This document shows, piece by piece, positions 5,375 to 21,708 of a DNA stretch of 64,000 bases. How positions within the stretch are numbered: the first letter of the stretch is position 1; the number at the start of each line of letters is the position of its first letter. The stretch covers positions 295,265-359,264 of the forward strand of contig NZ_BAABIA010000006.1 of NCBI RefSeq assembly GCF_039542385.1, given 5' to 3'. A program made the translations under genes and the position numbers. The notes below the pieces were generated by a model, which did no database searches, was not told the origin of the DNA, and worked only from the letters and a program-made list of their open reading frames with translations. Source of the DNA: Prosthecobacter algae. Its GTDB lineage: Bacteria; Verrucomicrobiota; Verrucomicrobiia; Verrucomicrobiales; Verrucomicrobiaceae.

Positions 5375-6350
5375 ACCCGACCGCAAAAGCGCCGCTAGAA
5401 AGCAGAGGCTTGCTGAAGCGATTGAAGTTCTCACAGCTTTGCAATTTGGGCCGAGGCAGCGAAATGAAGGTGCCGCACATACCCTCCTGGCGCTTCTTGA
5501 TCTAGCCCCTGAAAAGTCTTGGGAGGAGGCTGAAAGTCCTTTGCGAGGCATCACGCCCATCATTAATTTCATCGCGGAGAAATATAGTCTTCGCTACGCC
5601 CCCAACACTCGGGAAACGATCCGTGATGAATCTGTGAAGTTCTTCGCGGAAGCGGGCTTGCTGCTACGGAACCCTGACAATCCCAACCGCCCTACAAACA
5701 GCGGAAAAACTGTTTATCAGGTGGAACCATCGGCTCTTGCCTTGCTCCGCACTTTTGGAACACTGGAATGGGCGCATAAACTCAAGGCTTACCTTGCCAA
5801 CGTGGAGACGATAAAGCGAGAGATTGCCCGACATAGGGAGTTGGCCCGCGTTCCTGTCACGCTGCCAGATGGCAAGACCGTAGCCCTTTCACCGGGCGGA
5901 CAGAACCCGCTTATCAAGGCCATCATCGAAGACTTCTGCCCTCACTTTGCGCCGGGTGGCGTGGTGGCCTATATCGGAGACACGGAAAACAAATTTGCTC
6001 ATCTTGAAGCAGATTACCTCGCTGGGCTTGGTGTGGCACTGGATAGCGCGGCCAAGATGCCGGACGTGATCATTCACTGCACAAAGCGAAACTGGCTTCT
6101 TTTGATTGAAGCCGTTACGAGTGCCGGGCCTGTAGATGGAAAGCGGCGAAAGGAGCTCAAAGAGCTATTTGCCGGAAGCAAAGCGGGCCTAGTTTTTGTC
6201 ACGGCGTTCGACACACGCCGTGTGATGCAATCATTCCTGGCTTCCATCGCCTGGGAGTCCGAAGTTTGGATTGCCGAGGACCCGGCTCACATGATTCATT
6301 TCAATGGGGATAAATTCCTTGGCCCTTATCCTGATGCAATGCCGTCGTGA
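5361..6350 (+). CDS. Type II restriction endonuclease, BsuBI/PstI family
   Basis: The 329-residue product matches the BsuBI/PstI endonuclease family over most of its length. The conserved C-terminal block contains YIGDTENK (206-211 for GDTENK), P234-D235, the segment LLLIEAVTSAGPVDGKRR with E250, and FVTAFDTRR. P234-D235 and E250 fit a PD-(D/E)xK-like core, but I cannot assign the metal ligands firmly. An N-terminal helical region probably reads DNA. The ATG lies inside the last codons of the methyltransferase gene, a usual arrangement for coupled R-M genes. No controller gene was found. Confidence 0.9.
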   Translation: MASNKPDRKSAARKQRLAEAIEVLTALQFGPRQRNEGAAHTLLALLDLAPEKSWEEAESPLRGITPIINFIAEKYSLRYAPNTRETIRDESVKFFAEAGLLLRNPDNPNRPTNSGKTVYQVEPSALALLRTFGTLEWAHKLKAYLANVETIKREIARHRELARVPVTLPDGKTVALSPGGQNPLIKAIIEDFCPHFAPGGVVAYIGDTENKFAHLEADYLAGLGVALDSAAKMPDVIIHCTKRNWLLLIEAVTSAGPVDGKRRKELKELFAGSKAGLVFVTAFDTRRVMQSFLASIAWESEVWIAEDPAHMIHFNGDKFLGPYPDAMPS

Positions 6351-6491
6351 ATTCTTGGCCTATTCGGTCGAGGGTGGTGATCGGCGATGATTTTTCGGTT
6401 CCTGCTTTTTTGGTCCAAGAGTTCATTTCGAGGTGAAGCGGAAGATGGCTGATTGAATCGGGGGTTTGGCGAAGTAGGTCTTTTCGAAACC

Positions 6492-8084
6492 ATGCCTGTT
6501 CATCGCCTCTCTCTTGCCTTTTTTGCCTGCGCCCTGTCCTGCTTTGGGGCGAGTGATGTTGCTCTGCCTGCGGAGGGGATGGGTGGGAGGGACTCGGTTT
6601 ACCTAACGGCGAATGATTTATCCATCGCGACGGGGGAGCCTTCGCGGGTGCTGATGTCGAGTGGATCGATGCATGTGCCGGTGTGGTCGCTGTCTGGGGG
6701 CACGGTGGGGCAGTCGGTGGCGGGGGTGGTGGGCGGGCTGCCGAGGGGGTGCCAGGCGGTGAAGGTGGAGATCGTGGTGACGACTTCGGACGCGGCGACG
6801 AGTGCGGAGTTTGCGGATGTGTATCGGGTGCACCTGTCGCAGTTGGTGGAGGGTGCGCCTTTGATGTCGCGGTATGTGCTGGGGACTCCGGTGCGGACGG
6901 CGCTGCCTACGGGGCCGTTTCAGGTCCGGACGATCCTGCTGGAGTCGTACTACGAGGTGGTGGAGGATGCGCCGCTGTGGGTGAGGATCCAGCGGGAGCC
7001 GGGTGAGGCGGGGGATACTTTTACGCGCCCGACGGGGCTGGTGATGGTGAAGGTGACGCCGGTGGATGCGCCGGCGAAGACGCACGTGGTGCAGGATGGG
7101 GGCGGCTACAATTCCTGGCCGATGATCCAGGCCCTGGGTGATAAGCTGGTGTGCGTGTACAGCCGGGGCAAGGCGCACACGATCAACGATGATGAGCGGG
7201 CGGTGTATGCGCGGACCTCGACAGACGGTGGCCAGACGTGGACGCCGGAGACGGTGGTGGCGAATACGCCGAACTACGGTGAGGTGGAGGTGGGCAAGGG
7301 CCTGGACTCGACGGGGGCGATGCTGCTGTGGGTGCGGAGGATCGGGAAGGAGTGGAACCATGATCTGTACCGCAGCACGGATGGGGTGACGTTTACGCTT
7401 TTGGCGACGCCGAAGCTGGCGGTGCAGCCGATGCAGATCACGGATGTTTTTGCGGTGCCGACGGTGGGGCTGATGGCGCTGTGGTTCTCCGGGGACTATG
7501 GGGACAAGCCGACGAATGGGTGGGGCATGGTGACGAGTAGCGATGATGGTGCGACGTGGACGCAGACGCCCGTGGAGACGGGGCTGACGAAGCCGGAGTG
7601 GCCGACGGAGGCTGCGGCGGTGTATGTGGGTGAGGGGCGGATTTTGGTGATCGCCCGCACGGAGACGGGGCCGGCGCAGTTCCAGATCGTGTCCACGGAC
7701 TACGGGAAGACGTGGGTGCGCAAGCCAACGAACATTGGTGATGTGGCGGGATCGACCCCGAGCCTGGTGCTGGATGCGAAGACGGGGCTGGTGAGCAATT
7801 ACTATTACCACCGTGGCAAGGGGGTGCTGCGGCGGCGTGTGGTGGAGCCTAACCAAGTGTTTGACCATCCGCAGGAGTGGCCGGCCTCCGAGGTGGTGGG
7901 CACGGGGAGTAAGGTGATGTGGGATGCGGGGAATGCGAATGCGACGGTGATGGGCGGCAAGCACTACGTTTCTTTTTACTCTGGCAAGGCGCCCGATACG
8001 GCGGTGCTGGTGGCGGAGCTGCCTGCGCCGACGGGGGTGGAAAAGAAGGCGAAGTCCCCTGCCCCGGCTGGGGCGAAGAAGTAG
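6492..8084 (+). CDS. Secreted sialidase-like (BNR/Asp-box) protein
   Basis: The 530-residue protein starts with a signal peptide (MPVHRLSLAFFACALSCFGA); an in-frame ATG 39 bases upstream would put 13 unlikely residues before it. The body contains repeated Asp-box motifs of six-bladed sialidase-like propellers: STDGGQTW, SSDDGATW and STDYGKTW, plus a weaker STDGVTF. It also has the entry motif NSWPMIQ. The first ~170 residues look like a separate beta-domain. The tail is Lys/Pro/Ala-rich. Family members hydrolyse glycosides or only bind glycans; I cannot see the full Arg triad, so a true exo-sialidase activity is not proven. It stands alone after the R-M pair. Confidence 0.8.
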   Translation: MPVHRLSLAFFACALSCFGASDVALPAEGMGGRDSVYLTANDLSIATGEPSRVLMSSGSMHVPVWSLSGGTVGQSVAGVVGGLPRGCQAVKVEIVVTTSDAATSAEFADVYRVHLSQLVEGAPLMSRYVLGTPVRTALPTGPFQVRTILLESYYEVVEDAPLWVRIQREPGEAGDTFTRPTGLVMVKVTPVDAPAKTHVVQDGGGYNSWPMIQALGDKLVCVYSRGKAHTINDDERAVYARTSTDGGQTWTPETVVANTPNYGEVEVGKGLDSTGAMLLWVRRIGKEWNHDLYRSTDGVTFTLLATPKLAVQPMQITDVFAVPTVGLMALWFSGDYGDKPTNGWGMVTSSDDGATWTQTPVETGLTKPEWPTEAAAVYVGEGRILVIARTETGPAQFQIVSTDYGKTWVRKPTNIGDVAGSTPSLVLDAKTGLVSNYYYHRGKGVLRRRVVEPNQVFDHPQEWPASEVVGTGSKVMWDAGNANATVMGGKHYVSFYSGKAPDTAVLVAELPAPTGVEKKAKSPAPAGAKK

Positions 8085-8314: not shown

Positions 8315-8713
8315 ATGAAAGCTGCCTCGCGCCTATTGCTCGTTGCCGCCCTGATGATTTCCATCGGGCTGCACTGGGCGGTTGTGCAGTCGGTGGCTTG
8401 GGTGGGGATGGCGGTGACCTATTCGGTGAAAACGGGGTCGGTGGTTCAAGGTCTGAGCGATACCTTCGATGGTGAACATGCCTGCCCTCTCTGCCATGCA
8501 GTCGAAGAAGGCACCCAAAAATCTTCTTCTGAGAAAGATCCCGCCCCCTCCAAGATCCTGAAGGATCTGAAGTTGCATCTGGCGGTGACTACTGCGCCTG
8601 TTTTTGTTTTTGAGAAGCCTGCTGCACCTGAGTGGATGACGACATCCCAGACGGGTGACATTCGCGCTTTGACGCCTGAGCCACTGCCGCCACGAAGCGG
8701 TCTTTTGGCCTAA
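8315..8713 (+). CDS. Small membrane-anchored protein with CPLCH motif (copy 1)
   Basis: The 132-residue protein has one N-terminal hydrophobic segment (about residues 5-30), then the block GLSDTFDGEHACPLCHAVEEG, and a Lys/Ser/Pro-rich tail. The CxxCH string could bind haem c or, as in DUF2946-like proteins, a metal. It is a paralogue of the next gene: IGL.WA..QSVAW.GMAVTY and the DG.H.C.LCHAV motif match closely, while the tails differ. An in-frame GTG lies two codons upstream of the chosen ATG. The location upstream of cytochrome c, SCO and HMA genes suggests a role in copper or haem handling. Confidence 0.72.
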   Translation: MKAASRLLLVAALMISIGLHWAVVQSVAWVGMAVTYSVKTGSVVQGLSDTFDGEHACPLCHAVEEGTQKSSSEKDPAPSKILKDLKLHLAVTTAPVFVFEKPAAPEWMTTSQTGDIRALTPEPLPPRSGLLA

Positions 8714-9121
8714 CTGATCCTGTCTCAAAGGGCTGTCGTGCCTCGTGGTCCCTGCTTGCAGCGGGGAGGCGATGCATGGCCGAACAAAGACCTTTTGAGG
8801 TCCGGGCCTCAATGCGGGGATCGACGTTTGTTCCTTTCAATGAGGCTTCTTTGAGGCGGGGTCATGCCTGCTTTGCCATCCTGTCTTTTCGCGATTCGCA
8901 CGCGCTCCTTTCCCGGAGAACAGAGCATGGTTTCCGCTAGTTGCCATGTTCCGGGATGCCCCTGTCTGGCCGTTTCCAGGCAGGGGCGATCCATCTATCT
9001 CGGCCGGAGTTCCTTCGGCTGAGGACCACTGCCAGACCTGTCACAAGATCCCCCAGGACCCTTAAAATTCACTGATATGGACACTCCCACGGTGGGGAGT
9101 GTTCCCCGCCTTCCCTTCTTC
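8714..9121. other. Intergenic region between paralogues, with strong hairpin
   Basis: About 400 bases between the two CxxCH genes with no convincing coding potential on either strand. It contains the GCCCCTG/CAGGGGC hairpin at 8958-8987, listed separately, and a probable promoter or leader for the downstream gene after about 9000. I see nothing else assignable. Confidence 0.5.
8958..8987 (+). terminator. Stem-loop, possible terminator
   Basis: GCCCCTG at 8958-8964 pairs with CAGGGGC at 8981-8987, extended by partial pairing of TCTGG with CCAGG inside. There is no T-run after it, so it may be a Rho-dependent terminator or an mRNA-stabilising structure. Confidence 0.4.
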
Positions 9122-9505
9122 ATGAAACGCATTGCCCGCCTTTTCATCGTGGCTGCCCTGATGGTCTCCATCGGGCTGCCATGGGCGGCTTTGCAGTCGG
9201 TGGCCTGGATCGGCATGGCCGTGACTTACACGGTGGAAAAGGGATCGGTGGTGGAGGGATTGAGCGACACGTTTGACGGGGCGCACCCTTGTGCTCTCTG
9301 CCATGCGGTTTCCGACGGGCAAGAGAAGGAAAAGAAACAGGAACAGGACCAGGGCGGCAGCCCGAAAAAGAAGCTGGAGATGCTGCCTCTGAATCCACCT
9401 TCGTTATGGCGGCCGAAGCTTCCGCCGCAGGAGTATTCTTGGTTAGACTTTCGATGTGATCGGAGGGCTGCGACACCGCTTTTGCCTCCGCCGCGATGGG
9501 CATGA
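9122..9505 (+). CDS. Small membrane-anchored protein with CALCH motif (copy 2)
   Basis: The 127-residue protein starts at MKRIARLFIVAALM. The ATG 45 bases upstream would add a non-hydrophobic extension before the membrane helix, so 9122 is preferred. It repeats the plan of the gene at 8315: hydrophobic segment, QSVAWIGMAVTYTVEKGSVV, then DGAHPCALCHAV, and a charged tail (KEKKQEQDQGG). The CxxCH block faces the periplasm if the N-terminus is an anchor. It directly precedes the cytochrome c gene. Tandem paralogy suggests duplication followed by divergence of the tail. Confidence 0.75.
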   Translation: MKRIARLFIVAALMVSIGLPWAALQSVAWIGMAVTYTVEKGSVVEGLSDTFDGAHPCALCHAVSDGQEKEKKQEQDQGGSPKKKLEMLPLNPPSLWRPKLPPQEYSWLDFRCDRRAATPLLPPPRWA

Positions 9506-9628
9506 AAAGGATCGGGACACGACTCCCGCCATTCTGACTTTTCATCTCATTCTTAAACGACAGCCGCCATCCGCCCTCGCGCTGGATGGACGGTCCATGT
9601 CCTCGGCTTTTCATCACACTCTCGTTTC

Positions 9629-10090
9629 ATGTTTTCATCTTTTCGTTTCATTTTCACGGCGGCCTGTGCGGTCGCCCTTCATCAAGTTCACGCTCAAGAT
9701 TCTACGGCAGGTCAGACGGTTTACATGCAGGTCTGCTTTGCCTGTCATCAGCCGACCGGGCTGGGATTGCCCAATATGTTTCCGCCCTTGGCGGGTTCGG
9801 ACTGGGTCGCTGCGGCCAAGCCGGATCGCCTGATCCGCATCGTGCTGCATGGCATCACGGGGCCGATCCAACTCAATGGTCAGCCTTTCAATTCACCTGC
9901 GCCGATCATGCCGACACAGGGCACCTTGAGTGATGAGCAGATCGCCAATGTGCTGACGTATGTGCGGACGAATTTTGGCAACAAGGCCGGTGCCGTTACC
10001 GCTGCCGAAGTGAAGGCCATCCGTGAGGCAGAGAAAGCGCGCACGGCGATGTGGACGCAGGCCGAGTTGGAAAAAATCCCTGTGAACTGA
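9629..10090 (+). CDS. Periplasmic mono-haem cytochrome c (class I)
   Basis: The 153-residue protein has a signal peptide (1-22, ending VHA) and one haem c site, CFACHQ, with C36, C39 and H40. The likely axial Met is M94 in SPAPIMPTQG. The order CxxCH, LPNMFPPLAGSDW, then the Met loop is that of small electron carriers related to those fused to oxidases or dehydrogenases. About 40 charged residues follow the haem domain. It lies 3 nt upstream of the SCO-like gene, so the two are probably cotranscribed. It could be the electron partner of the large di-haem protein encoded downstream. Confidence 0.9.
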   Translation: MFSSFRFIFTAACAVALHQVHAQDSTAGQTVYMQVCFACHQPTGLGLPNMFPPLAGSDWVAAAKPDRLIRIVLHGITGPIQLNGQPFNSPAPIMPTQGTLSDEQIANVLTYVRTNFGNKAGAVTAAEVKAIREAEKARTAMWTQAELEKIPVN

Positions 10091-10093
10091 GCC

Positions 10094-10786
10094 ATGGCCG
10101 ACTCGCGATCATCTCATGCCGGATGGCCCTCTTGGGTGACCCGTTTGCTTGCCTATGGCATCGGCGGCTGCCTCGTCTTTGGGGTGATCGTGGGTGCCAA
10201 TGCGCTGTTTGAAAACACCCGTCCTTCGATGCCGATCCCCATCATCACCACGGTGAAGGGCGACCTTGTGGCGACGGAGAGATCTGGCCGCACGGTGAAG
10301 TTTTCCGACCTTAAGGGGAAGGTGGTGGTGTGTGCTTATCTTTACACGGTTTGCCCGCATGGGTGCGCGGCGATCACGGCGCAGATGCAGCAGTTGCTCA
10401 AGCGGTTTGGTGACCGTGCGGACTTCCAGTTGCTCTCGGTCGCCATTCATCCAGACCGGGACACGCCCGCCCTTTTGAGCAGCTATGCTGAGGCTGTGGG
10501 GGCCCAGGGGGATTCACCGTGGTGGTTTGTCACAGGCGAGCAGAAAGGACTGTGGGACTTCATGACGAAGGAACTGCACCTGGAGGAGGCGAAGCCCATC
10601 CCTGAAGATGAGCGGATAAACCCGATGGACCACTATGAGCATGATCTGCGCATGGTGCTGATCGACCGCCAGGGCCGCGTGCGCCGCTATTACTCGGTCT
10701 TTCATCCGCAGCCGGAAATCGCTGCCGTGATGTGTGAACGCCTGCCTCAGGATGTGCAGCGCCTGCTCGAAGACCCGGAACTTTAA
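10094..10786 (+). CDS. SCO1/SenC-family thioredoxin-fold protein
   Basis: This 230-residue protein has one N-terminal membrane anchor (about 15-38) and a thioredoxin-like domain. The copper ligands of the SCO family are recognisable: CPHGC with C87 and C91 (CxxxC), and a histidine at H180 or H183 before LRMVLID. SCO proteins deliver copper to the CuA site of cytochrome oxidase or act as thiol reductases. The start is 3 nt after the stop of the cytochrome c gene, and the HMA-like gene begins 4 nt after its stop. The context supports a copper role. Confidence 0.88.
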   Translation: MADSRSSHAGWPSWVTRLLAYGIGGCLVFGVIVGANALFENTRPSMPIPIITTVKGDLVATERSGRTVKFSDLKGKVVVCAYLYTVCPHGCAAITAQMQQLLKRFGDRADFQLLSVAIHPDRDTPALLSSYAEAVGAQGDSPWWFVTGEQKGLWDFMTKELHLEEAKPIPEDERINPMDHYEHDLRMVLIDRQGRVRRYYSVFHPQPEIAAVMCERLPQDVQRLLEDPEL

Positions 10787-10790
10787 AGCC

Positions 10791-11117
10791 ATGAAAAATC
10801 TATTGTTTACGATTCTATTGTTTGTTATTCCCTGCCATGCGGCGGACCCCACCTTTGTTTATCAAGGCGAGGTGTCCGGGGTGTTTTGCAGCGTGTGCTC
10901 CAGCCATGTCAAAGCAGCGCTGATGACGATCCAGGGTGTGCAGGATGTGAAGATCAAAATCGCGCCGGAAGGGCAGCTTCCTAAGCTGACCCTCACGGCC
11001 ACGACGGACCGGCTGACCCGTGAGGATGCGGTCAAGGCCTTGGGAGACAAGGCCAAGGACTTCGACATTCGCTCTCTCAAACTGGTTCAGCCTTCAAGCG
11101 CAACCCCTACACGCTGA
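10791..11117 (+). CDS. Secreted HMA-like CxxC metal-binding protein
   Basis: The 108-residue product has a signal peptide (about 1-17) and a ferredoxin-like heavy-metal-associated fold. The metal motif is CSVC (C33, C36), within GEVSGVFCSVCSSHV, followed by VQDVKIKI as in MerP/CopZ-like proteins. In contrast to cytoplasmic copper chaperones, it is predicted to be exported. An earlier ATG at 10734 would lie inside the SCO gene and lacks a signal peptide, so 10791 is chosen. Its stop overlaps the start of the next gene (TGATG), indicating coupled translation. Confidence 0.87.
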   Translation: MKNLLFTILLFVIPCHAADPTFVYQGEVSGVFCSVCSSHVKAALMTIQGVQDVKIKIAPEGQLPKLTLTATTDRLTREDAVKALGDKAKDFDIRSLKLVQPSSATPTR

Positions 11118-14100
11118 TGAAATTTACCTTCCTTCCATTCCTCGTTCTTTTGGCGACCTATCTGGGCACGACAGAGGCGGCGCACGCTGCTTTTGAGCAT
11201 GCTGAGGCACGCCATACGCATCCCGTCGGCCTGACTCCTGACGGCACGCGGCTGTTGGCGGTGGATTCCATCAATGCTCGGTTGAGTGTTTTTGATGTGA
11301 CGGGTTCCGGTGCCCCGGTGCGGGTGACGGAGATCCCCACGGGGCTGGAGCCCGTTTCCGTGAGGGCGCGCACGAATGATGAGGTGTGGGTGGTCAATGA
11401 ATTGAGTGACAGTGTCTCGGTCATCTCGCTGAGTCAGGGGGTGGTGCTGGCTACTCTGAGTGCGGAGGATGAGCCAGCGGATGTGGTCTTTGCCCAAGGT
11501 AAGGCCTTCGTCACCTGCGCCCGAAACAACAGCCTGCGCATCTTTGATGTGACCACGCGCAATCTGGTCGCGACGATTCCTCTGGAGGGACTGTATCCGC
11601 GAGTGCTCACGGTCAGTGCCGACGGTGCCAAAGTGTATGCGGCGTTCATGGACTCTGGTAACCGCACGACCATTCTGCCGAAGAGTGCGGCACCAGCACA
11701 ACCTACGCCATCGAACCCAAGCCTGCCTGCGCCGCCGCAGACTGCGCTCATTGTTCCATCCGATGATTCACGGGTCAGCCATTTCACGCTGGATCATGAT
11801 GTGGTGGAGATCGATGCGAGCAATCACAGCATCCTTGGTTATGCCAGTGGTGTTGGCACGACGCTCTTTGACCTCGCTTTTCGCCCCGGATCGGGAGACC
11901 TTTGGGTGGGCAATACGGAGGCCTTTAACCTGATCCGCCATGAGCCGAATCTCCGGGGTCGCTTCGCAGCGAACCGGCTGACGCGCATCGCCGCAGGCAC
12001 GGGGCAGGTAACGGCCTTTGATCTCAATCCGGGCATTGACTACCAGACGCTGCCCAACGCTGCCGCCCAGGCCACTGCGCTGGCACAGCCGACGGCCCTA
12101 GCCTTCAGTGGCGATGGCGGCACGTTATGGATCGCCGCTTTTGCCTCGGATCGCATTGCCAAGGTGAACGCAGAGGATGCAGCGGTGCAGGCTCGTGTGG
12201 ATCTGCGCACAGGTGCAGATGCCAGTGCCGCCGCGATGCGGGGACCGCGTGGGCTGGTGCTGGATGAGGCAAGCGGGCGGTTGTTTGTGCTGAACAAGCT
12301 GTCACACACTCTCAGCGTGATATCCACAGACTCACTGGCCATTGCGCATGAGATCCCGATTTCTGCCTTCAATCCGATGCCAGCATCCGTCAAAGCGGGG
12401 CAAGGCTATCTCTTCGATGCCCGTTTGTCTGGCAATGGCACGGTGTCTTGCGGCACCTGCCATTTCGATGCGGACCGGGATGGGCTGGCATGGGATCTGG
12501 GTGACCCTGCGGGGGAGATGATGACCGTGCTGGGGGCCAATCTTTCCGTTCATGATAATACGCCGCGTCCACGTGTGATGCACCCGATGAAGGGGCCGAT
12601 GACGACGCAAACGCTGCGGGGCATGCAGGATGGTGCCCCCTTTCATTGGCGGGGTGACCGGGCCACCATCGCTGCGTTCAATCCGACTTTCGATCTCCTG
12701 ATGGGTGGACAGCAAATCGACGAAGAAGACATGGCTGACCTAACCAGCTATTTGCTAAGCATCGTCAATCATCCTAACCCAAACCGCAACAACGATCGCA
12801 GTTTGCCCACTTCCTTTGGCAACGGGAATCCTGTTACGGGTCGTGATCTGTATAACAATCACAACAAGTCCCATTGTGCGGTCTGCCATCTTTTGCCCAA
12901 GGGAACGGACAACAACATTGATCTGCCACAGGAGGTGGGGTCTGCCCAGCCACTGAAGACGCCTCCGCTGCGCACGGTTTATCAGCGTATGTTTTATAAT
13001 CCACGAGCAGGGGCGGAATCCCTGAGCGGCTTTGGAATGCTGCATGATGGCACCGGCTTTGTTCTGCCCATCGTTCATCCCTACGTGCTGGACAATCTGG
13101 ACCTGGCTGAGCTGAAGCACGTCACGGCTTTCCTTCAGTGCTTTGACTCGGGGGTGGCACCTGCGGTGGGCATGAGCGCCACCGTGAATGTTGCCAATCG
13201 CGCCGATGCCAGTGTCAGCACGGTGCTGAATCTGCTCGAAGCCCGTGCGGCGGTGGATCCTGGTGACTGTGACCTGATCGTGCGAGGCAAGGTGGGAGGC
13301 CAGGAAAAACGCTACCAGTTCAGCCCCGGCCCTAAAACTTACCGAAGTGAAAAGGCGAGCGAAGGAAGCCTAACTAGAAGTGCGCTTCTTTCCTTGATCG
13401 AGGGCAGTGATTCGGTTTCGTTTTTGGGGACATTGCCAGGAGCGGGCCCACGCTTGAGCGTGGATGAAGATGAAGATGGTTTCCTCAATGGTGATGACCC
13501 CAATCCCGGCCTCAAGGATGGCCCGCCAACAATCACCCAGGAGCCGGTGGACCGTGCAGTGCCGCCCGGAGCGGATGTGAGTCTAACCGTTCAAGCGGAA
13601 GGGCTGGGGCTGAGCTTCCAATGGTATAAGGGAACGCAGCCCATCATCACAGGCACGGAAGCGACGCTCACCCTGAAGGAGGTGACGACAGCGGATGCAG
13701 GCAACTACAGCGTCCAGGTGCAGAATGCCTCCGGCAGCCGAACCAGCCGAGTGATGAAGCTGGAGGTGTATCCTGCCCCGGTAATCACGGTGCATCCAGT
13801 GTCGCTGAGCGTCAAAGAGGGGCAGAGCGCCACCTTTAGCGTCACAGCAACTGGCAGCGGGATCACCTACCAGTGGAGGCGTGGCAGCGCCCAGGTTGGC
13901 GGTGCGACGGCACGCACTCTAACGCTCAATGGTGTAAGTGCGGCTGACATCGGCAGCTACAATGTGGTCGTCAGCAACGGAGCCGGTAGCGATACCAGTG
14001 GAGAGGCGCAGTTAAGTGTGCAGTTGAAACCCGTGATGAATCCCCTGAATCTTCGAGGGGCCATCATCGGACAGGACTATTCAGACGCAGTGAGCGCTAC

Positions 14101-15451
14101 TCATGAGCCCACTCGTTTTACCATTACAGGATTGCCCCCGGGCCTGAAATACGATGCTAGCACTGGGGTCATCAGTGGACGACCCACGGTGAGTAAAACG
14201 TACTTAGTCAAGGCCACGGCCACGAATGGGGCAGGCACTGGGCCACAGGTTTCGCAAGAGCTGACGGTGGAGCCTTTTCCGGCTCAGTTGATCGGCACTT
14301 ACGATGGCATCATGCCACGAAACTTGGGCATGAACGGCCTTCTGGGAGGTCGGTTAAAACTCACCGTTGCCAAGACGGGTGCTTATTCGGGCACGCTAAG
14401 CTTGGGCTCGGTGACGCATGCCTTGAAGGGGGCTTTGAAGGTGCTGCCGGATGAGGATCCCACTCACGAAATGTTCGTGAAGCGCAAAGGGAAGTCGGAC
14501 CTTAAGGTCACACTCACCCTGGGGCGTCAAAGCCGCATGGTGACGGGAGAGATTGAGGAGGAGGGCTCTACCTTGGCTTTGGCTGCACGTCTGCCGGATG
14601 TGGAACTCAGCCGTTACACAGGGAACTACACCCTGGCTCTGAAACTGAGCCTGGGGGATCAGGGGCAACCGCACATTCCCCAAGGTCATAGCCACGGGGC
14701 CTTTAAGGTATCCACAAAGGGGGCGGCCTCGGGGGTGATTTTTCTGGCTGATGGTACGAAGATGACCTTCGCGGCCCCCATCGCTGAGGGCGGACACTTA
14801 CCCTTTCACAGTCTGCTGTATGCCAAGACAGGTTCCGCGCAGGGGCTTTTAAAATTGGGTTCCGATGCGATGCATAGGCTCGCAGTGGGCAGTGAGGTGT
14901 CTTGGTTTAAAGAAACTCAGGCACGTTTCTCGCGGCTGTATCCGCAGACTTTTGGTCCGCTGAATCTAGGCGTCATCGGCGGGGTTTACACCGTCCCCTC
15001 CTCCACTGAGATTGCGATGAATCTGGAAGCAGGCGCGGGCAATGCACGCCTGGCTTTTGCCCGAGGTGGAGCACCTGATCCTGCGACGCGGCTGAACCTG
15101 GAGGCCCTGGAGATCCAGCCTGGCAGCCCAGCCAAGCTGGTGTTCCCAGCGAGTAACCCTGGCCTGGTTAAACTCACCGTGACACCAGGTAAAGGAGCGG
15201 CCTTTACGGCTGGAGGAACGGGCGTGTTCAAAGGCAGCTTCAGTCTTTCAGACATGGATAACAGCCTGACGCCTAACAAGCTTTTGAAACGGACGGCGAC
15301 CTTCAGTGGCGCCCTCGTGGACGATGGCACTTCGGTCAAAGGCTACGGCTTTTTCATCCTGGCCCAGATGCCGACTGCAGAGCCGAAGACGACGACCTCC
15401 ACCAGCCCCCAGCTTTCCGGCAGCGTCCTCTTAGAGGCCTCCGTGCCCTGA
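11117..15451 (+). CDS. Large secreted propeller, di-haem cytochrome and Ig-like multidomain protein
   Basis: The 1444-residue protein has a signal peptide (1-24), followed by a YVTN-type beta-propeller (about 25-430). A cytochrome c peroxidase/MauG-like region follows with two haem sites, CGTCH at 445-449 and CAVCH at 587-591. Two Ig-like domains follow (about 803-970; motifs FQWYKGTQP and YQWRRGSAQ), then a He_PIG-like putative Ig domain (about 975-1053). The C-terminal 389-residue module (1056-1444) is shared with the next gene. His residues cluster right after the signal peptide (HAAFEHAEARHTH). The stop of the HMA gene overlaps its start. I infer a surface redox enzyme, possibly linked to copper or to a peptide-cofactor modification as in MauG, but the substrate is unknown. 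Confidence 0.85.
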   Translation: MKFTFLPFLVLLATYLGTTEAAHAAFEHAEARHTHPVGLTPDGTRLLAVDSINARLSVFDVTGSGAPVRVTEIPTGLEPVSVRARTNDEVWVVNELSDSVSVISLSQGVVLATLSAEDEPADVVFAQGKAFVTCARNNSLRIFDVTTRNLVATIPLEGLYPRVLTVSADGAKVYAAFMDSGNRTTILPKSAAPAQPTPSNPSLPAPPQTALIVPSDDSRVSHFTLDHDVVEIDASNHSILGYASGVGTTLFDLAFRPGSGDLWVGNTEAFNLIRHEPNLRGRFAANRLTRIAAGTGQVTAFDLNPGIDYQTLPNAAAQATALAQPTALAFSGDGGTLWIAAFASDRIAKVNAEDAAVQARVDLRTGADASAAAMRGPRGLVLDEASGRLFVLNKLSHTLSVISTDSLAIAHEIPISAFNPMPASVKAGQGYLFDARLSGNGTVSCGTCHFDADRDGLAWDLGDPAGEMMTVLGANLSVHDNTPRPRVMHPMKGPMTTQTLRGMQDGAPFHWRGDRATIAAFNPTFDLLMGGQQIDEEDMADLTSYLLSIVNHPNPNRNNDRSLPTSFGNGNPVTGRDLYNNHNKSHCAVCHLLPKGTDNNIDLPQEVGSAQPLKTPPLRTVYQRMFYNPRAGAESLSGFGMLHDGTGFVLPIVHPYVLDNLDLAELKHVTAFLQCFDSGVAPAVGMSATVNVANRADASVSTVLNLLEARAAVDPGDCDLIVRGKVGGQEKRYQFSPGPKTYRSEKASEGSLTRSALLSLIEGSDSVSFLGTLPGAGPRLSVDEDEDGFLNGDDPNPGLKDGPPTITQEPVDRAVPPGADVSLTVQAEGLGLSFQWYKGTQPIITGTEATLTLKEVTTADAGNYSVQVQNASGSRTSRVMKLEVYPAPVITVHPVSLSVKEGQSATFSVTATGSGITYQWRRGSAQVGGATARTLTLNGVSAADIGSYNVVVSNGAGSDTSGEAQLSVQLKPVMNPLNLRGAIIGQDYSDAVSATHEPTRFTITGLPPGLKYDASTGVISGRPTVSKTYLVKATATNGAGTGPQVSQELTVEPFPAQLIGTYDGIMPRNLGMNGLLGGRLKLTVAKTGAYSGTLSLGSVTHALKGALKVLPDEDPTHEMFVKRKGKSDLKVTLTLGRQSRMVTGEIEEEGSTLALAARLPDVELSRYTGNYTLALKLSLGDQGQPHIPQGHSHGAFKVSTKGAASGVIFLADGTKMTFAAPIAEGGHLPFHSLLYAKTGSAQGLLKLGSDAMHRLAVGSEVSWFKETQARFSRLYPQTFGPLNLGVIGGVYTVPSSTEIAMNLEAGAGNARLAFARGGAPDPATRLNLEALEIQPGSPAKLVFPASNPGLVKLTVTPGKGAAFTAGGTGVFKGSFSLSDMDNSLTPNKLLKRTATFSGALVDDGTSVKGYGFFILAQMPTAEPKTTTSTSPQLSGSVLLEASVP

Positions 15452-15526
15452 CTTTCTAGCGGAAAACCAAGCAAACAACACACCCACAACCAAGACCCAG
15501 ACACCTGATACGCCTACCTCATTCAC

Positions 15527-18500
15527 ATGAAAACTAAACGATACTCCCTGAACCGGCTTCTGACCGGCACGGTGCTCCTCCTGGGCACTCTGTCCGCATC
15601 AGCGCACATCGGTTATACTGGCCGTGACTTCGGCACGGTTGTGCCTAACGCGGCCCCCGTCACCATTGCCAATCAAGCCGTCACCAGCAATTATGGCTGG
15701 GCTGATGGCACCGACGCCGACTTCGGCGATGGCCACAAGCTGCGCTACTACCGCTTCAACCTTGCGGCACCGGCCTATGTCACCATCAGCTTCAGCGGCT
15801 CCACCAATGGCGGTACCAAGAACGGCAGCATCAAGCCTGGATTTTCTGTCTTCCAGGGCCTTGCTCACCTTGCCCCCATCACCAATGCGCCGGGCAGTGC
15901 AGACCATGACGGTGCTCCGATCACCTTGGCCTATCTGGCCAGCCTGGGCGGGGTGGCAAAGGAAGGCGCTTTCCGTGCGCTCGCGGACTGGCGAGTGGGT
16001 GGAGAGAACCAGCCTGGACCTGTTTTTGACTTCGATGCTGCCGATGGCCTGAGCACGTTCGTGTTCAAAGGCTATGCCGTGGATGGCAATGCCAGCCTCT
16101 TTGGTTCAGCACCTGGAGTCGTGGGAGACAACAATGCCGATGGGACGGTGACCAAGTCATTGTTCCTCCCCGCAGGAGACTATTCGATCTTTGTGGGGGG
16201 CGCGAACTATACGGGCCAGTTTCCCACCCCAGATGCGACCTCCTACGGCCTGACTGGCACAATTTCTGCCTCAGCCTTTACCTATGCTGCCGGTGATCCG
16301 GTGGAAGGTGGCATCGGCTATCAGCATCAGGTTACCTTGGGGGAAAACAGCTCTGGCAGCTTCAGCGGCCTTGTGGGTGCCTGGAGTTGGGAAGACAATA
16401 AATTGTTCGGCGGCGACGGCCAGGGCACCGACCCGGTAGGTTGGACACACACCTCCAACTGGGCAGCGCTGCATCTGCAAAAAGATACGGTCTTGACCGT
16501 CACCATGGCACGTGATGCCAACGTGCCGGACCCCACGGAGGAAAATCCGGACGCCAAAGCGGACACCTCATCCATGAATCCCTCCATGACGTTGTTTCGC
16601 GGACTGGACAATGATGGGGACGATTTCCATACCTATAACAACCGTGGCAACATTGCCTGGGCGGAAGACATCCAATACGTGGACCATGTGGAGAACTCCA
16701 CCGAGGAAACCATCACCCGTTCCTGGTTCCTTCGTGCCGGAGACTACACCTTCGCGCTGGGCAGCAATGCCACGGCAGACAACCTCAAAAAGCAGGGGTA
16801 CAGCATTTCATTCTCTACACAGTCCTCGGGAGCTGTCGATCCTGTGCCCAATACTTACCTGCCGCCTGAATACATTGGCACCGGAGGCATTGGTTATGCT
16901 CACACTGTCATCGCCAAGGTTGGTGATGCTGGCAGCTTCAGCAACCGCGTGGGAGCCTGGAGCTGGGAAGACAGTTCTTTGCCTTCTTCTCCTGGACAGA
17001 AATCTTTGGGCTGGACCCATACGAGCAACTGGCTCGCACTGAAGCTTGAAGAGGAGGCCTATTTCTCACTCACCATGGAGAGCGACGACAACGTCCCCTG
17101 GCCGAGCACCGAAAACCCTGACCGTAAGGCGGATACAAGCCACATGAAGCCCAGCTTCACCCTCTACCGCGGCTGGGACAACGACGGCTCTGACAATCAC
17201 ACCTACAGCAACAAAGGTAACGTGCTGTGGGCGGAAGACATCCGCTACCTGGACCATGTGGACAACTCCACCGCGAGCAAAGTCACCCGCACCTGGCGTC
17301 TGCCGCCCGGGGAATACACTCTCGCCCTGGGCAGCAATGCCACGGCAGACACCCTGCTGGAACAAGGCTACAAGGTTTCTTACCAGGCGCTCACGGCAGG
17401 TGCTGTCGTCACAGGAGATCCCGCCGCAGGCGGCATCGGCTACTCCCGTGTCATCAATGTGGGCCGCGGAGACAGCGGCACCTTTTCAGATCATGTCGGT
17501 TCATGGAGCTGGGAAGATCAAGGCCTCGATGCGGATGAACCTGTCGGCTGGACACACCAGAGTCGCTGGCTTGCCGTGCACATCAAAGATCCTCTGACGC
17601 TGAACATCACGATGGCTCGTGATGCCAATGTTTCATGGCCGAGCACCGAAAATCCTGGCCGCTTGGCCCCCGTCGATAAAATGAATCCGAGCTTCACACT
17701 CTATCGTGGCTGGGACAATGACGGCTCTGACAGCCACATTTACAGCAATAGTGGCAACGTTGCCTGGGCGGAAGATATTAGCTATGTGGACCACTACGGT
17801 AACAGTTCATTGGGGGTCATCACTCGCTCTTACACCCTCGCTCCCGGCTATTACACCTTCGCTCTCGGCAGCAATGCGCCAGCCGATGAGCGGGATACGA
17901 ACCGTCAAGGATTCAGCTTCACCTGGACGACTGGAAATCCCGTCGTGATTTCCCCGGTGATTACGCAGCAGCCCAAGGGAGTCGAATTGGTGGAAGGAAA
18001 GAAAGCCGCTCTCAGCGTCAAAGCCAGCGGCCCAGCCCTTTCCTATCAATGGAGCCGTAATGGGAAAGCCATTGAGGACGGCACCTCCGACACTTTGGTG
18101 ATCGAAGAGACCACCCTGAGTGATGCTGGCAGCTACACGGTGGAGGTGCGTAACGCAGCAGGTTGGGTTACTAGCACGGCCGCATCCGTGGCGGTTGTCG
18201 CAGTTCCCGTCGTGGTTGGTTTCGACATCCCTGATCTCATCGTTGGGCAGCCCTATCAGATCCAGCTCACGGCGATCAACAGCCCCACGGCCTTTGCTGT
18301 GAAGGGGCTTCCACGCGGGCTGACCTTTGATTCCAAGACACTTCTCATCAGTGGTCGCCCACAGGTGGTCAGTCCTCTGGTGACGGTTGAAATCATCGCC
18401 TCGAACAAAGCAGGCAAGAGTGAGAAGACCACGGACACCTTTGCGGTCACTTCCCTGGCCACAGGCGTGGGAGGCAGCTTCACAGGACCGCTGGGCCGTG

Positions 18501-19639
18501 ATGCTTCTATCAATGGGATTCTTGGCGGCTTGATTAAACTCCAAGTCACTGGCACGGGTGCATTAACAGGCACCGTTACACTGGGTGGCAAGTCACACAA
18601 AGTAGCCGCACTTCTAGACACCTCGCTGGAATCACCGGAGGCCAGCTTCAGCTTGCCACGCCCTGGACAGCCCGCGTTGACTGTGTCTCTGCATGTCTAT
18701 GCCGCAGCCAAAGCCATCTATGGTGAGATCACAGACGGCACGACCGTGCTGCCCTTTATCGCGCGTCAGCCGCTGACCCCGGCAGGTGCCTATGCTGGCG
18801 ACTACACCTTGGCCATGCGGCTGGATGAGCTTGACGTAGGGGACGTGTCCCTACCTCAGGGAGCCAGTATCGGCGCTTTCAAAATCGCCCCTACTGGGGC
18901 CGCGACGGGTGTGATCATCCTGGCAGACAGCACCAAGCTGACCTTCGGGGGGCCCCTGGAACAAAATGGTCATTTGACCGTCTTCGGCGTCCTCTCCAAA
19001 GGCGTGGGTTCACTACTCGGAGCCTTCGACATCGAAGCTCCTACAACCGCGGGTGAAAACAGCACAACGACTGGAAATCTAGCCGTTTCTGAATTCTCCT
19101 GGTTCAAAGGCGAGGTCGCCAAAGACCGTGCCTATGCAGAGGGTTTTGGTCCCCTTGACCTCCAAGTCATTGGCCGCAAATACAGCACACCCGCCAGTGA
19201 TGAACTCGCCCTGGGCGCTCAGTCCAGCCCAGGCAATGCCAAGATCACCTTCACCGAGGGTGGTGCGCCTGATCCTGAAACACGCCTGAATCTGGACACC
19301 ATTGAGCTCGGTCTGAAAACGACCAAGATCACTGAGCCGAACCCCGCCAAGGTCAAACTGACGGTGGTCGCAGGTGCCCCAGGCAAATTCACGCCTGGCA
19401 CCAGCGGCAGTTTCAAGGGCAGCTTTGAGCTGACAGACAATGACACCAGTGTGACACCCGCGAAGCCACTGAAACGCTCTGCCAATTTCCAGGGCATGAT
19501 CGTGGACGATGGTGAAAGCGTGAAAGGTTACGGCTTCTTCATGCTGCCGCAAATGCCGACCGCCAGCCCGAAAACGACCGCGAAGACCTCGCCGATTCTC
19601 TCGGGTGCTGTCCTGCTGGAAGCTATCCCGACCGAATAG
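15527..19639 (+). CDS. Large secreted repeat protein with Ig-like domains and shared C-terminal module
   Basis: The 1370-residue protein has a signal peptide ending ASA, giving a predicted mature N-terminus HIGYTGRDF. A divergent repeat (about 25-255) is followed by three close repeats of roughly 185 residues, starting near 259, 451 and 633. Each begins GGIGY and contains GWTH.S.W, DANV.WPSTENP, TLYRGWDNDGSD, WAEDI.YVDH and YTFALGSNA. Then come an Ig-like domain (about 810-890), a He_PIG-like domain (893-975) and the same C-terminal module as the upstream protein (980-1370, ending KGYGFFMLPQMPT). I do not recognise the repeat family; its Asp/His-rich loops suggest metal or Ca binding. It is cotranscribed or closely linked (75 nt gap). 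Confidence 0.8.
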   Translation: MKTKRYSLNRLLTGTVLLLGTLSASAHIGYTGRDFGTVVPNAAPVTIANQAVTSNYGWADGTDADFGDGHKLRYYRFNLAAPAYVTISFSGSTNGGTKNGSIKPGFSVFQGLAHLAPITNAPGSADHDGAPITLAYLASLGGVAKEGAFRALADWRVGGENQPGPVFDFDAADGLSTFVFKGYAVDGNASLFGSAPGVVGDNNADGTVTKSLFLPAGDYSIFVGGANYTGQFPTPDATSYGLTGTISASAFTYAAGDPVEGGIGYQHQVTLGENSSGSFSGLVGAWSWEDNKLFGGDGQGTDPVGWTHTSNWAALHLQKDTVLTVTMARDANVPDPTEENPDAKADTSSMNPSMTLFRGLDNDGDDFHTYNNRGNIAWAEDIQYVDHVENSTEETITRSWFLRAGDYTFALGSNATADNLKKQGYSISFSTQSSGAVDPVPNTYLPPEYIGTGGIGYAHTVIAKVGDAGSFSNRVGAWSWEDSSLPSSPGQKSLGWTHTSNWLALKLEEEAYFSLTMESDDNVPWPSTENPDRKADTSHMKPSFTLYRGWDNDGSDNHTYSNKGNVLWAEDIRYLDHVDNSTASKVTRTWRLPPGEYTLALGSNATADTLLEQGYKVSYQALTAGAVVTGDPAAGGIGYSRVINVGRGDSGTFSDHVGSWSWEDQGLDADEPVGWTHQSRWLAVHIKDPLTLNITMARDANVSWPSTENPGRLAPVDKMNPSFTLYRGWDNDGSDSHIYSNSGNVAWAEDISYVDHYGNSSLGVITRSYTLAPGYYTFALGSNAPADERDTNRQGFSFTWTTGNPVVISPVITQQPKGVELVEGKKAALSVKASGPALSYQWSRNGKAIEDGTSDTLVIEETTLSDAGSYTVEVRNAAGWVTSTAASVAVVAVPVVVGFDIPDLIVGQPYQIQLTAINSPTAFAVKGLPRGLTFDSKTLLISGRPQVVSPLVTVEIIASNKAGKSEKTTDTFAVTSLATGVGGSFTGPLGRDASINGILGGLIKLQVTGTGALTGTVTLGGKSHKVAALLDTSLESPEASFSLPRPGQPALTVSLHVYAAAKAIYGEITDGTTVLPFIARQPLTPAGAYAGDYTLAMRLDELDVGDVSLPQGASIGAFKIAPTGAATGVIILADSTKLTFGGPLEQNGHLTVFGVLSKGVGSLLGAFDIEAPTTAGENSTTTGNLAVSEFSWFKGEVAKDRAYAEGFGPLDLQVIGRKYSTPASDELALGAQSSPGNAKITFTEGGAPDPETRLNLDTIELGLKTTKITEPNPAKVKLTVVAGAPGKFTPGTSGSFKGSFELTDNDTSVTPAKPLKRSANFQGMIVDDGESVKGYGFFMLPQMPTASPKTTAKTSPILSGAVLLEAIPTE

Positions 19640-19681
19640 TAACAGCCTGAAAAACCTTTAGAAATGACGAAGGAGCCATCC

Positions 19682-20587
19682 ATGAAGACCGACCGTGCAA
19701 CAGCCTTCATCGATCCCCGGCCCGGGAGCCTCGGCCTCCGCCGCCGGGCCTTCGTCATTTCTATTTTCCTCGCCCTCTCACACTTTATTTCCTCCATCGC
19801 CACCGCTCATCACGGGCGCGATTTCATCCTCATCCAGGACAGTGCGATCCCCGCACGGTTCAGCGGCGTCGCCATCGCCGGCTATGAATGGCAGCGTGAT
19901 GGAGACACGGACTCCTTCTCCACCGAGCCCGGCTTTTTTATCGGCCTGGCCCCCGCACTCGCCTTCGGACTGTCCGCAGGTTTTTCAGATGAAAGTGGTG
20001 ACTGGAACTACACCGGCATCACGCCCCAGTTTGTCATTTCCCTGTTGCCGCCCACTGGGCCGACGAATTTTCGTGTCGGACTTTGGACAGGTTATGAATT
20101 TGCTGAAGCGCAGGACGATTCTCACAGTCATGCCGTAGGCGCACACTCCCATAATACCGGTTCGGGCCCGGATGCAGGCCCGCAGGTGCCGCACAGCCAC
20201 GGCGGTTCCGGTCACGATCACGGCTCCCATTCCCATGGGGGCATCCACCGCCATGGAGAGAGCGGTCTTTACTCCCGCCTTATTTTAGAGAGCGACCTCA
20301 CGGAGCGCACACGCGCTGTATTGAATCTCATCAGCTTTGTCTCCGGCGCTGGTGGCGGCCCCGGATTTGGTTATGCGCTGGGTCTGCGGTATGAGTTCAA
20401 TCACGACCTATCGATGGGGATCGAAACCCTCGGAGACTTCCGCAGCTATGGCAGCTCGCACGAGGTCTTGTTGACCACGATGATGGGTTTGCCAAATCAT
20501 CTGTCACTTCGGCTCGGGATCGGCGGTGGTTTGACGAAGAGCAGCCCGGACTTTACCCTGCACACCAGCTTTCTGTGGCGGTTTTAG
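19682..20587 (+). CDS. His-rich outer-membrane beta-barrel protein
   Basis: The 301-residue protein starts at MKTDRATAF, placed 6-7 nt after an AGGAG ribosome site; an ATG 18 nt earlier lies inside that site. The signal peptide ends ATA, giving a mature N-terminus HHGRDF that resembles that of the preceding protein. Alternating hydrophobic strands and the C-terminal SFLWRF suggest a barrel inserted by the Bam pathway. A loop at about 147-196 carries repeated His (DSHSHAVGAHSH, HSHGGSGHDHGSHSH), a plausible Cu/Zn/Ni site. It ends the cluster and could be the metal-binding porin or sensor of the system. Confidence 0.8.
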   Translation: MKTDRATAFIDPRPGSLGLRRRAFVISIFLALSHFISSIATAHHGRDFILIQDSAIPARFSGVAIAGYEWQRDGDTDSFSTEPGFFIGLAPALAFGLSAGFSDESGDWNYTGITPQFVISLLPPTGPTNFRVGLWTGYEFAEAQDDSHSHAVGAHSHNTGSGPDAGPQVPHSHGGSGHDHGSHSHGGIHRHGESGLYSRLILESDLTERTRAVLNLISFVSGAGGGPGFGYALGLRYEFNHDLSMGIETLGDFRSYGSSHEVLLTTMMGLPNHLSLRLGIGGGLTKSSPDFTLHTSFLWRF

Positions 20588-21066: not shown

Positions 21067-21708
21067 ATGCCACACATCTGGATCATCGAAGACAACGCCG
21101 CCTTTCGCCGGGGCACAGAACGTGCGCTGACGATGAAGCCCCATGCACATGAGGTGCGGGCGTTCATGAGCTGCGAAGATGCGATTGAGGCGCTGCATTG
21201 CCCCCACTTGCCGGACGTGATCCTGCTGGATGTGGGACTGCCCGGCATGGATGGCATTGAAGGCATCACGCATCTGAAAAGCCGTGCTCCCGCCGCCAGC
21301 ATTCTGATTCTCACGGTCTTCGAAGATGATGACAAAATCTTCCGCGCCATTTGCGCTGGTGCCTCCGGTTACCTTTTGAAATCCGAGCCCATGGCCCAGG
21401 TTATCACCTCGATTGATCAAGCGATCGCCGGTGGCTCGCCCATGAATCCACGCATCGCCACGCGAGTGCTTGCCATGTTCGCGCAGCTCGCCCCAGCGAA
21501 GAAGGACTACGGCCTGGATGAGCGTGAGCAGGCGGTTTTGAAATGCATGGTCGCCGGAATGCCGCGCAAACAAATCGCCGAAGCCACGAGCCTGAATCCT
21601 CACACCGCAGACTACGTGACCCGCAGCATTTACCGCAAGCTCCACGTCAACTGCGCAACTGCTGCCGTTTCCAAAGCGGTGGCAGAGAGATTGGTGGAGG
21701 ATCGGTAA
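21067..21708 (+). CDS. NarL/FixJ-type response regulator (orphan)
   Basis: The 213-residue protein has an N-terminal receiver domain (MPHIWIIEDN, phosphoacceptor Asp in DVILLDVGLPGMDG) with the later LTVFEDDDKI and GYLLKSEP blocks. A LuxR-type HTH follows (DEREQAVLKCMVAGMPRKQIAEATSL). It would act as a phosphorylation-controlled transcription activator. No histidine kinase lies beside it. Its position after the 8.3-20.6 kb cluster makes that cluster a possible target, but nothing in the sequence proves it. Confidence 0.9.
   Translation: MPHIWIIEDNAAFRRGTERALTMKPHAHEVRAFMSCEDAIEALHCPHLPDVILLDVGLPGMDGIEGITHLKSRAPAASILILTVFEDDDKIFRAICAGASGYLLKSEPMAQVITSIDQAIAGGSPMNPRIATRVLAMFAQLAPAKKDYGLDEREQAVLKCMVAGMPRKQIAEATSLNPHTADYVTRSIYRKLHVNCATAAVSKAVAERLVEDR

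Follow-up and report, generated by a model that had tools for sequence, protein, structure and literature searches.

A candidate cell-envelope Cu(I)-capture system with three CorA/MopE-type modules and a propeller-fused di-haem partner in Prosthecobacter algae

The stretch of DNA analyzed here (the window) comprises 64,000 nucleotides of contig 6 (NZ_BAABIA010000006.1) of the 6.1-Mb genome of Prosthecobacter algae. A cluster of eight open reading frames (ORFs), all on the + strand, spans positions 8315-20587. The cluster is probably a cell-envelope system for the capture of Cu(I), of the type formed by CorA/CorB and MopE/SACCP, in which tryptophan (Trp) of a copper protein would be converted to kynurenine (Kyn) by the di-haem protein encoded beside it. 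The eight genes on one strand with mostly tight spacing that were described in the initial annotation were confirmed. From the cytochrome gene onward the intergenic gaps are +3, +4, -1, +75 and +24 bases. The copper protein and its predicted modules are located as follows.

15527..19639, + strand: CorA-like giant with tandem copper modules, 1370 amino acids (PF18252, Cu_bind_CorA, 33.6 bits over the whole protein, curated cut-off 27)
16274..16828, + strand: predicted copper module 1 with W306, H308 and H368 (structure model and ligand triad)
16844..17398, + strand: predicted copper module 2 with W496, H498 and H558 (module alignment and triad)
17381..17935, + strand: predicted copper module 3 with W675, H677 and H737 (module alignment and triad)
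18467..19636, + strand: C-terminal module in common with the di-haem giant (sequence identity between the copies)

The 1370 amino acid giant was shown by sequence comparison and structure modelling to hold three predicted modules of the CorA/MopE type with the copper-site residues of that type. This gene had been described as a repeat/immunoglobulin-like (Ig) giant. The gene, the repeats and the Ig part stand, but the repeats had not been recognized as copper modules and they are the center of the system. The N-terminus is of Sec type, as judged by eye, and Ig and He_PIG domains were also predicted by Pfam. Each of the three repeats contains GWTH and a second histidine (His) 62 residues past the Trp in an HxY(N/S)N motif. 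The spacing of the triad is identical in all three modules, with His at +2 and +62 from Trp.

When a profile of 18 modules (alignment A1, 18 of 46 modules) was compared to the PDB, the only matches with E < 0.05 were MopE 2vov (0.0036) and CorA 4bz4 (0.0073), both aligned on GWTH. No matches were found by phmmer with the raw repeat region of the giant against the PDB or with one Methylococcaceae member, and the copper giant had no NCBIfam match. Module 1 was modelled from 112 sequences with a predicted local distance difference test score (pLDDT) of 93.9 and a predicted template modelling score (pTM) of 0.90. The top PDB match of this model in VIA-align was CorA (Z 13.7, 2.6 A over 143 residues), followed by MopE (Z 13.1, 3.7 A over 158 residues), with the best other fold at Z 9.5. 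CorA (E 1e-6) and MopE (E 5.5e-6) were also the best PDB matches in Foldseek. Alignment of the 112 modules to 12 CorA homologues with hhalign gave a probability of 97 and an E of 9e-11; in it GWTHTS corresponds to GWTHHS, and the His in FHTY to that in GHAY. In the CorA homologue L112 the Trp, His and His are at positions 66, 68 and 118, a constant offset of +4 relative to 62, 64 and 114 of CorA.

The modules of the 112-module alignment (A3) were chosen by a W.H pattern, and the counts for W and H in it (112/112) follow from that selection. Conservation of the triad was counted in 123 domains encoded by ORFs of 61 loci, using a profile built from A3 and no motif filter. Forty-four of the loci are verrucomicrobial and 17 are from Nitrosomonas, Nitrospira, Methylococcales and one Deltaproteobacterium. 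The Trp of W-x-H and the His at +2 were each kept in 117 of the 119 domains covering the position. The second His was kept in 110/118. All three residues of the triad are missing together from two domains (L045 and L065, the latter at a locus with masked letters). H368 was kept in 89/91 verrucomicrobial rows of A3 and in 18/21 others. H387 was kept in 86/91 verrucomicrobial rows, while elsewhere His was present in 5/21 and the residue was mostly Asn. H368 is the better candidate for the second ligand because it is kept outside Verrucomicrobiota too.

The number of modules per protein varied. Copper giants of relatives have up to four WTH modules. Short-form loci encode a single-module copper protein with a PEP-CTERM-like tail (L073, from Haloferula sp. 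BvORR071, 18.3 bits compared to a cut-off of 20.7; L080 and L090, judged by eye). Single-module CorA-like proteins were also seen at L077-L079, L081-L089, L091-L094 and L096, from Nitrosomonas, Nitrospira, Methylococcales and one Deltaproteobacterium. Nitrospira locus L084 has three module genes in a row.

The putative partner of the copper giant is encoded 75 bases upstream of it.

11117..15451, + strand: propeller, di-haem (CCP/MauG superfamily), Ig and C-terminal module protein, 1444 amino acids (Pfam and PDB profile matches)
12449..12463, + strand: haem 1 CxxCH, residues 445-449 (invariant in 26 aligned di-haem rows)
12875..12889, + strand: haem 2 CxxCH, residues 587-591 (invariant in 26 aligned di-haem rows)
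14294..15439, + strand: C-terminal module in common with the CorA-like giant (sequence identity between the copies)

The earlier description of this protein as a di-haem propeller/Ig giant resembling MauG and CcpA was borne out, with CCP_MauG, propeller and Ig domains all above Pfam cut-offs. The propeller part matched PF10282 and PDB 1l0q (E 2e-14). CCP_MauG (PF03150, cut-off 25.6 bits) scored 28.3 bits with the whole protein and 33.7 bits with the isolated di-haem core, and it was found in 26/26 di-haem cores of the family at E up to 0.001. In addition to both CxxCH motifs, the Trp of HWRGD, the Trp of AWDLGDP, His69 and His79 after haem 1, and Tyr212, His244 and Tyr246 were invariant in the 26 rows of the di-haem alignment (A5, segment numbering).

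Known di-haem families were considered for this protein and rejected. It scored 25.3 against a cut-off of 443.85 for MauG proper (TIGR03791) and 24.4 against 362.85 for MbnH (TIGR04039). The hydrazine synthase beta-gamma fusion model gave 45.1 bits compared to 1250, and the gamma model was also far below its cut-off. The propeller and di-haem layout (window 11117-13276) has a weak likeness in profile to the beta and gamma chains of hydrazine synthase (5c2v), which have these parts in common with it. The window protein is not a member of that family; a distant evolutionary link between the two is possible on this likeness. A fold search with the model of the di-haem part gave matches filled by Ig domains.

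The di-haem partner in Verrucomicrobiales is, on profile comparison, of a lineage other than CorB/SACCP. The comparison was made with partners of the Nitrosomonas/Nitrospira type (A8, 11 rows), which are CorB-like, and not with the CorB-type set A7 itself; the verrucomicrobial core aligned to A8 over 48 columns around haem 1 only, with a probability of 71. A8 and A7 aligned over 401 columns with an hhalign E of 6e-101. Judged by these alignments one copper fold is paired with two lineages of di-haem partner. This is taken as the best evidence that copper protein and di-haem protein work together as a pair.

Gene neighbourhood was compared across the 61 loci, which include several per genome (L039/L044, L052/L055 and L074/L076), many being from the same genomes as L021-L035. 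A di-haem gene was defined as an ORF of at least 350 amino acids with exactly two CxxCH motifs, or any ORF matching the core profile, including cut-off ORFs such as that of L050. A di-haem gene adjoins the CorA-like gene in 52 of the 61 loci. These are 37/44 verrucomicrobial loci, where it lies 0-190 bases upstream, and 15/17 others. In L091, L094 and L096 of the others the nearest di-haem gene is on the opposite strand. All seven verrucomicrobial loci without a di-haem neighbour hold less than 1.7 kb of upstream sequence, and a di-haem gene was present in 36 of the 38 verrucomicrobial loci with at least 1.5 kb upstream. As background, flanking sequence beyond 3 kb from the gene, 484 kb in total, contained one two-CxxCH ORF of at least 350 amino acids. 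In the CorA family of methanotroph G097, 23/24 loci hold a CxxCH ORF of at least 150 amino acids (2-3.6 kb fetched per locus).

The commonest gene order is cx (small HxCxxC protein), di-haem, module and barrel gene (13 loci), with a cx gene upstream of the di-haem gene in 32/44 verrucomicrobial loci. Gene order was kept in 15 regions from 14 genomes of relatives where the contig reaches; L031 has the barrel and cx genes before the module gene. Five loci (L052, L055, L063, L066 and L075) are titled Akkermansia muciniphila. These are environmental-looking isolates of metagenome-assembled genome (MAG) type and the species label looks doubtful.

At the genome level 386 genomes of Verrucomicrobiales were searched (module E <= 1e-6, core E <= 1e-10; at most 8 module and 6 core candidates scored per genome). 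Modules were found in 59 and the di-haem core in 72. All 59 genomes with modules have the core and 314 have neither (Fisher p about 3e-57, uncorrected for relatedness). No module was found in 13 genomes with the core, eight of which have a core match of only 6e-42 to 3e-56. Lack of co-occurrence in other genomes had been set beforehand as grounds for abandoning the system; the genes co-occur strongly and the proposal stands on this point. In a phylum-wide draw of 387 genomes modules were present in five, all Verrucomicrobiales. The pattern within the genus is patchy, with modules in 14/48 genomes including that of the window.

Ammonia monooxygenase and particulate methane monooxygenase (AMO/pMMO, PF02461) were found in 0/59 genomes with modules, 40 of them with a completeness of 90% or more and a contamination of 5% or less; the search did not extend to soluble methane monooxygenase. 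As controls, methanotroph G097 gave two matches and Nitrosomonas MAG G102 gave none, for which its incompleteness may account. A need for AMO/pMMO was rejected on this result. A link to nitrous-oxide reductase was also rejected, as TIGR04246 was found in 3/59 genomes with modules and 9/327 without (p 0.40). Searches of the open-licence literature turned up no account of CorA-type proteins from Verrucomicrobiota that do not oxidize methane, nor of a system built like the one in the window.

The closest known systems are CorA/CorB of Methylomicrobium album BG8 (4bz4) and MopE/SACCP of Methylococcus capsulatus Bath (2vov). The Cu(I) ligands are Kyn62, H64 and H114 in CorA (PMC3912023) and Kyn130, H132 and H203 in MopE (PMC3423442). 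In crystals of CorA a distance of 2.9 A separates copper from the kynurenine nitrogen, which is termed a second-sphere ligand, and a haem-protein gene is next to corA (PMC3912023). The window system is like CorA/CorB in module fold, in its Trp/Kyn-x-His...His ligands and in the adjacent haem-protein gene. It is like MopE/SACCP in fold, in the Trp/Kyn-x-His pattern and in having a di-haem partner. In MopE 71 residues separate the two His (132 and 203), compared to 60 in the window module (308 and 368). The second His of the window was aligned with H114 of CorA; there was no direct alignment with H203 of MopE.

In MbnP/MbnH (TIGR04052/TIGR04039) a protein is likewise paired with a MauG-like di-haem protein. 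MbnH reportedly makes kynurenine in MbnP. The window pair differs from it in that the di-haem giant is far below the MbnH cut-off and the copper giant matches no model of this kind. The occurrence of the MbnP/MbnH pair extends far outside the methanobactin producers (PMC3621798).

What is new compared to CorA/CorB and MopE/SACCP is the multi-site build, the propeller-fused di-haem partner of another lineage and the hosts in which no AMO/pMMO was found. CorA is a single module of about 230 amino acids, whereas the window giant has three modules per protein. Its partner, unlike CorB and SACCP, is fused to propeller and Ig domains, and no AMO/pMMO gene match was found in the Prosthecobacter algae host. 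The cluster had been put forward as matching no known named system. The architecture is indeed new, but the core follows the CorA/CorB and MopE/SACCP pairs.

In the proposed mechanism the giant and the di-haem protein would both be exported. The propeller-di-haem protein would then convert the Trp in every Trp-x-His motif to kynurenine by oxidation, and one Cu(I) would be bound per module through two His with the kynurenine close by. About three coppers would thus be bound per giant, in the periplasm or at the surface. More speculatively, the His-rich barrel and the HxCxxC proteins may carry copper across the envelope or along it. In loci that have them, the HMA-like and SCO proteins may deliver copper to a copper enzyme, in the simplest case at the CuA site of a cytochrome oxidase, and the cytochrome c may move electrons. 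The joint copper or redox role proposed earlier for the cluster is supported by the anatomy and conservation of the genes; taken as a whole, the earlier interpretation is partly supported.

If this is correct, the protein-derived copper site of a few methanotrophs would work, in multi-site form, in bacteria without copper monooxygenases. Copper handling in the envelope of Verrucomicrobiales would also gain a concrete candidate. It is about an even question whether kynurenine-type Cu(I) capture is a general modular chemistry of the envelope that is not confined to methane and ammonia oxidizers, with a three-site scaffold in the window matured by a propeller-fused di-haem protein whose lineage either took the place of CorB/SACCP or was independently recruited as tryptophan oxidase.

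A number of points weigh against the kynurenine-based Cu(I)-capture system. Kynurenine, copper binding and regulation are all inferred. Single modules are below the PF18252 cut-off (22.6 compared to 27 bits for module 1), as is the gene of the CorA-like giant in a search at the DNA level (21.4). In the genomes of relatives 3/96 are above the PF18252 cut-off and 15/96 match at E 0.01. The Foldseek TM-scores of the module 1 model are moderate (0.59/0.54 for CorA and 0.51/0.34 for MopE). Three Methylococcales modules (L091, L094 and L096) keep Trp-x-His and have Gly in place of the second His. The model of the di-haem core is poor, with much of it at pLDDT 30-50, and the fold of the core rests on sequence. 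In five genomes the core was matched strongly (E < 1e-70) and no module was found, and the genome counts are phylogenetically non-independent. The cytochrome-SCO-HMA genes are present in only 9/44 verrucomicrobial loci. The roles of the di-haem partners in methanotrophs, including that in kynurenine formation in CorA and MopE, are described as still to be elucidated, and a corB-homologue mutant of M. alcaliphilum grew faster on methane (PMC3912023). The pairing in the window supports a functional link and offers another system for testing it.

A role in copper resistance, with sequestration at high copper in place of acquisition, is possible but rather unlikely. It is compatible with the proposed chemistry of the site. 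Sequestration would fit the presence of an HMA-like exported protein, of multiple copper sites and of a His-rich protein, and also the patchy distribution in the genus. By contrast, CorA and MopE are described as copper-repressed or induced by lack of copper and are tied to acquisition (PMC3912023, PMC11784148). The phenotypes reported for corA mutants are conflicting (PMC11784148). A Pfam scan of 19 of the proteins encoded in the window turned up no copper P-type ATPase or multicopper oxidase.

It is improbable that the modules bind Cu(I) through two His with the Trp left unmodified and with the di-haem protein serving to protect or reduce the site, as a peroxidase or redox partner. The second-sphere position of kynurenine in the CorA crystal would allow this. 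The role of CorB in Trp oxidation is unproven, the faster growth of the corB-type mutant points the same way, and non-enzymatic Trp oxidation has been proposed for the CorA-type site (PMC3912023). Against it, pairing with a di-haem protein holds for two different lineages and the Trp is conserved as well as the His. It is very improbable that the giant is a beta-sandwich protein for adhesion or carbohydrate binding with a structural W/H pattern and incidental copper, as would suit its Ig and He_PIG domains, its widespread C-terminal module and the many unrelated beta-sandwiches at Z 8-9.5, because CorA and MopE are clearly at the top of the fold search, the ligands align with those of CorA and are lost jointly in two degenerate copies, and the di-haem core is present in every genome with modules.

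The remaining genes of the predicted Cu(I)-capture cluster encode small exported or membrane proteins, three optional components and a probable barrel.

8315..8713, + strand: cx1, small exported/membrane protein with HxCxxC (HACPLC), 132 amino acids (no Pfam match)
9077..9505, + strand: cx2, second copy of the cx1 family, HPCALC (sub-threshold Pfam match only)
9629..10090, + strand: mono-haem cytochrome c, optional part (PF00034, 51.8 bits, cut-off 21.3)
10094..10786, + strand: SCO1/SenC protein with CPHGC, optional part (PF02630, 63.3 bits, cut-off 22.8)
10791..11117, + strand: exported HMA-like protein with CxxC, optional part (PF00403, 23.6 bits, cut-off 24.8)
19664..20587, + strand: His-rich probable outer-membrane barrel (C-terminal Phe and His content of homologues)

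The proteins cx1 and cx2 had been read as two CxxCH membrane proteins. In 37 aligned members of the family both Cys were present in 37/37, the His two before in 34/37 and the His after CxxC in only 3/37. A conserved haem family was rejected on these counts. The family motif HxCxxC suggests a thiol or copper site and not a haem. The mono-haem cytochrome c and the SCO protein with its CxxxC were upheld as annotated, both being above Pfam cut-offs; CxxCH was kept in 11/11 aligned rows of the former and CPHGC in 10/10 rows of the latter. The exported HMA protein fared less well. Its CxxC was kept in 10/10 rows, but its PF00403 score is just under the cut-off. All three, SCO, HMA and cytochrome c, are optional components of the system.

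No Pfam family was above cut-off for the His-rich protein, with PF13505 below cut-off. Its homologues end in Phe in 28/28 cases with a complete 3' end, and a C-terminal Phe is typical of outer-membrane barrels. At least five His within 40 residues were present in 29/31 homologue frames, the two exceptions being cut-off frames.

The C-terminal module of about 390 amino acids was correctly noted before as common to the two giants, whose copies are each other's closest (47% identity). It is also general, being encoded in 19 places in the genome and in many giant proteins, including one open frame of 6958 amino acids. It was rejected on these grounds as a mark of the copper system. It may serve Prosthecobacter algae generally as a sorting or surface module.

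Directly upstream of the cluster and on the same strand is a BNR-repeat protein (window 6453-8084). It had no match in the 15 regions of relatives searched and is therefore outside the conserved cluster there. Further upstream is a restriction-modification pair (window 3875-6350) of an Eco57I-type methylase and a BsuBI/PstI-type endonuclease. A planctomycete-type cytochrome/PSD protein and a DUF1552 protein are encoded on the minus strand at window 3-3028. A response regulator with LuxR-type output is encoded shortly downstream of the cluster (window 21067-21708).

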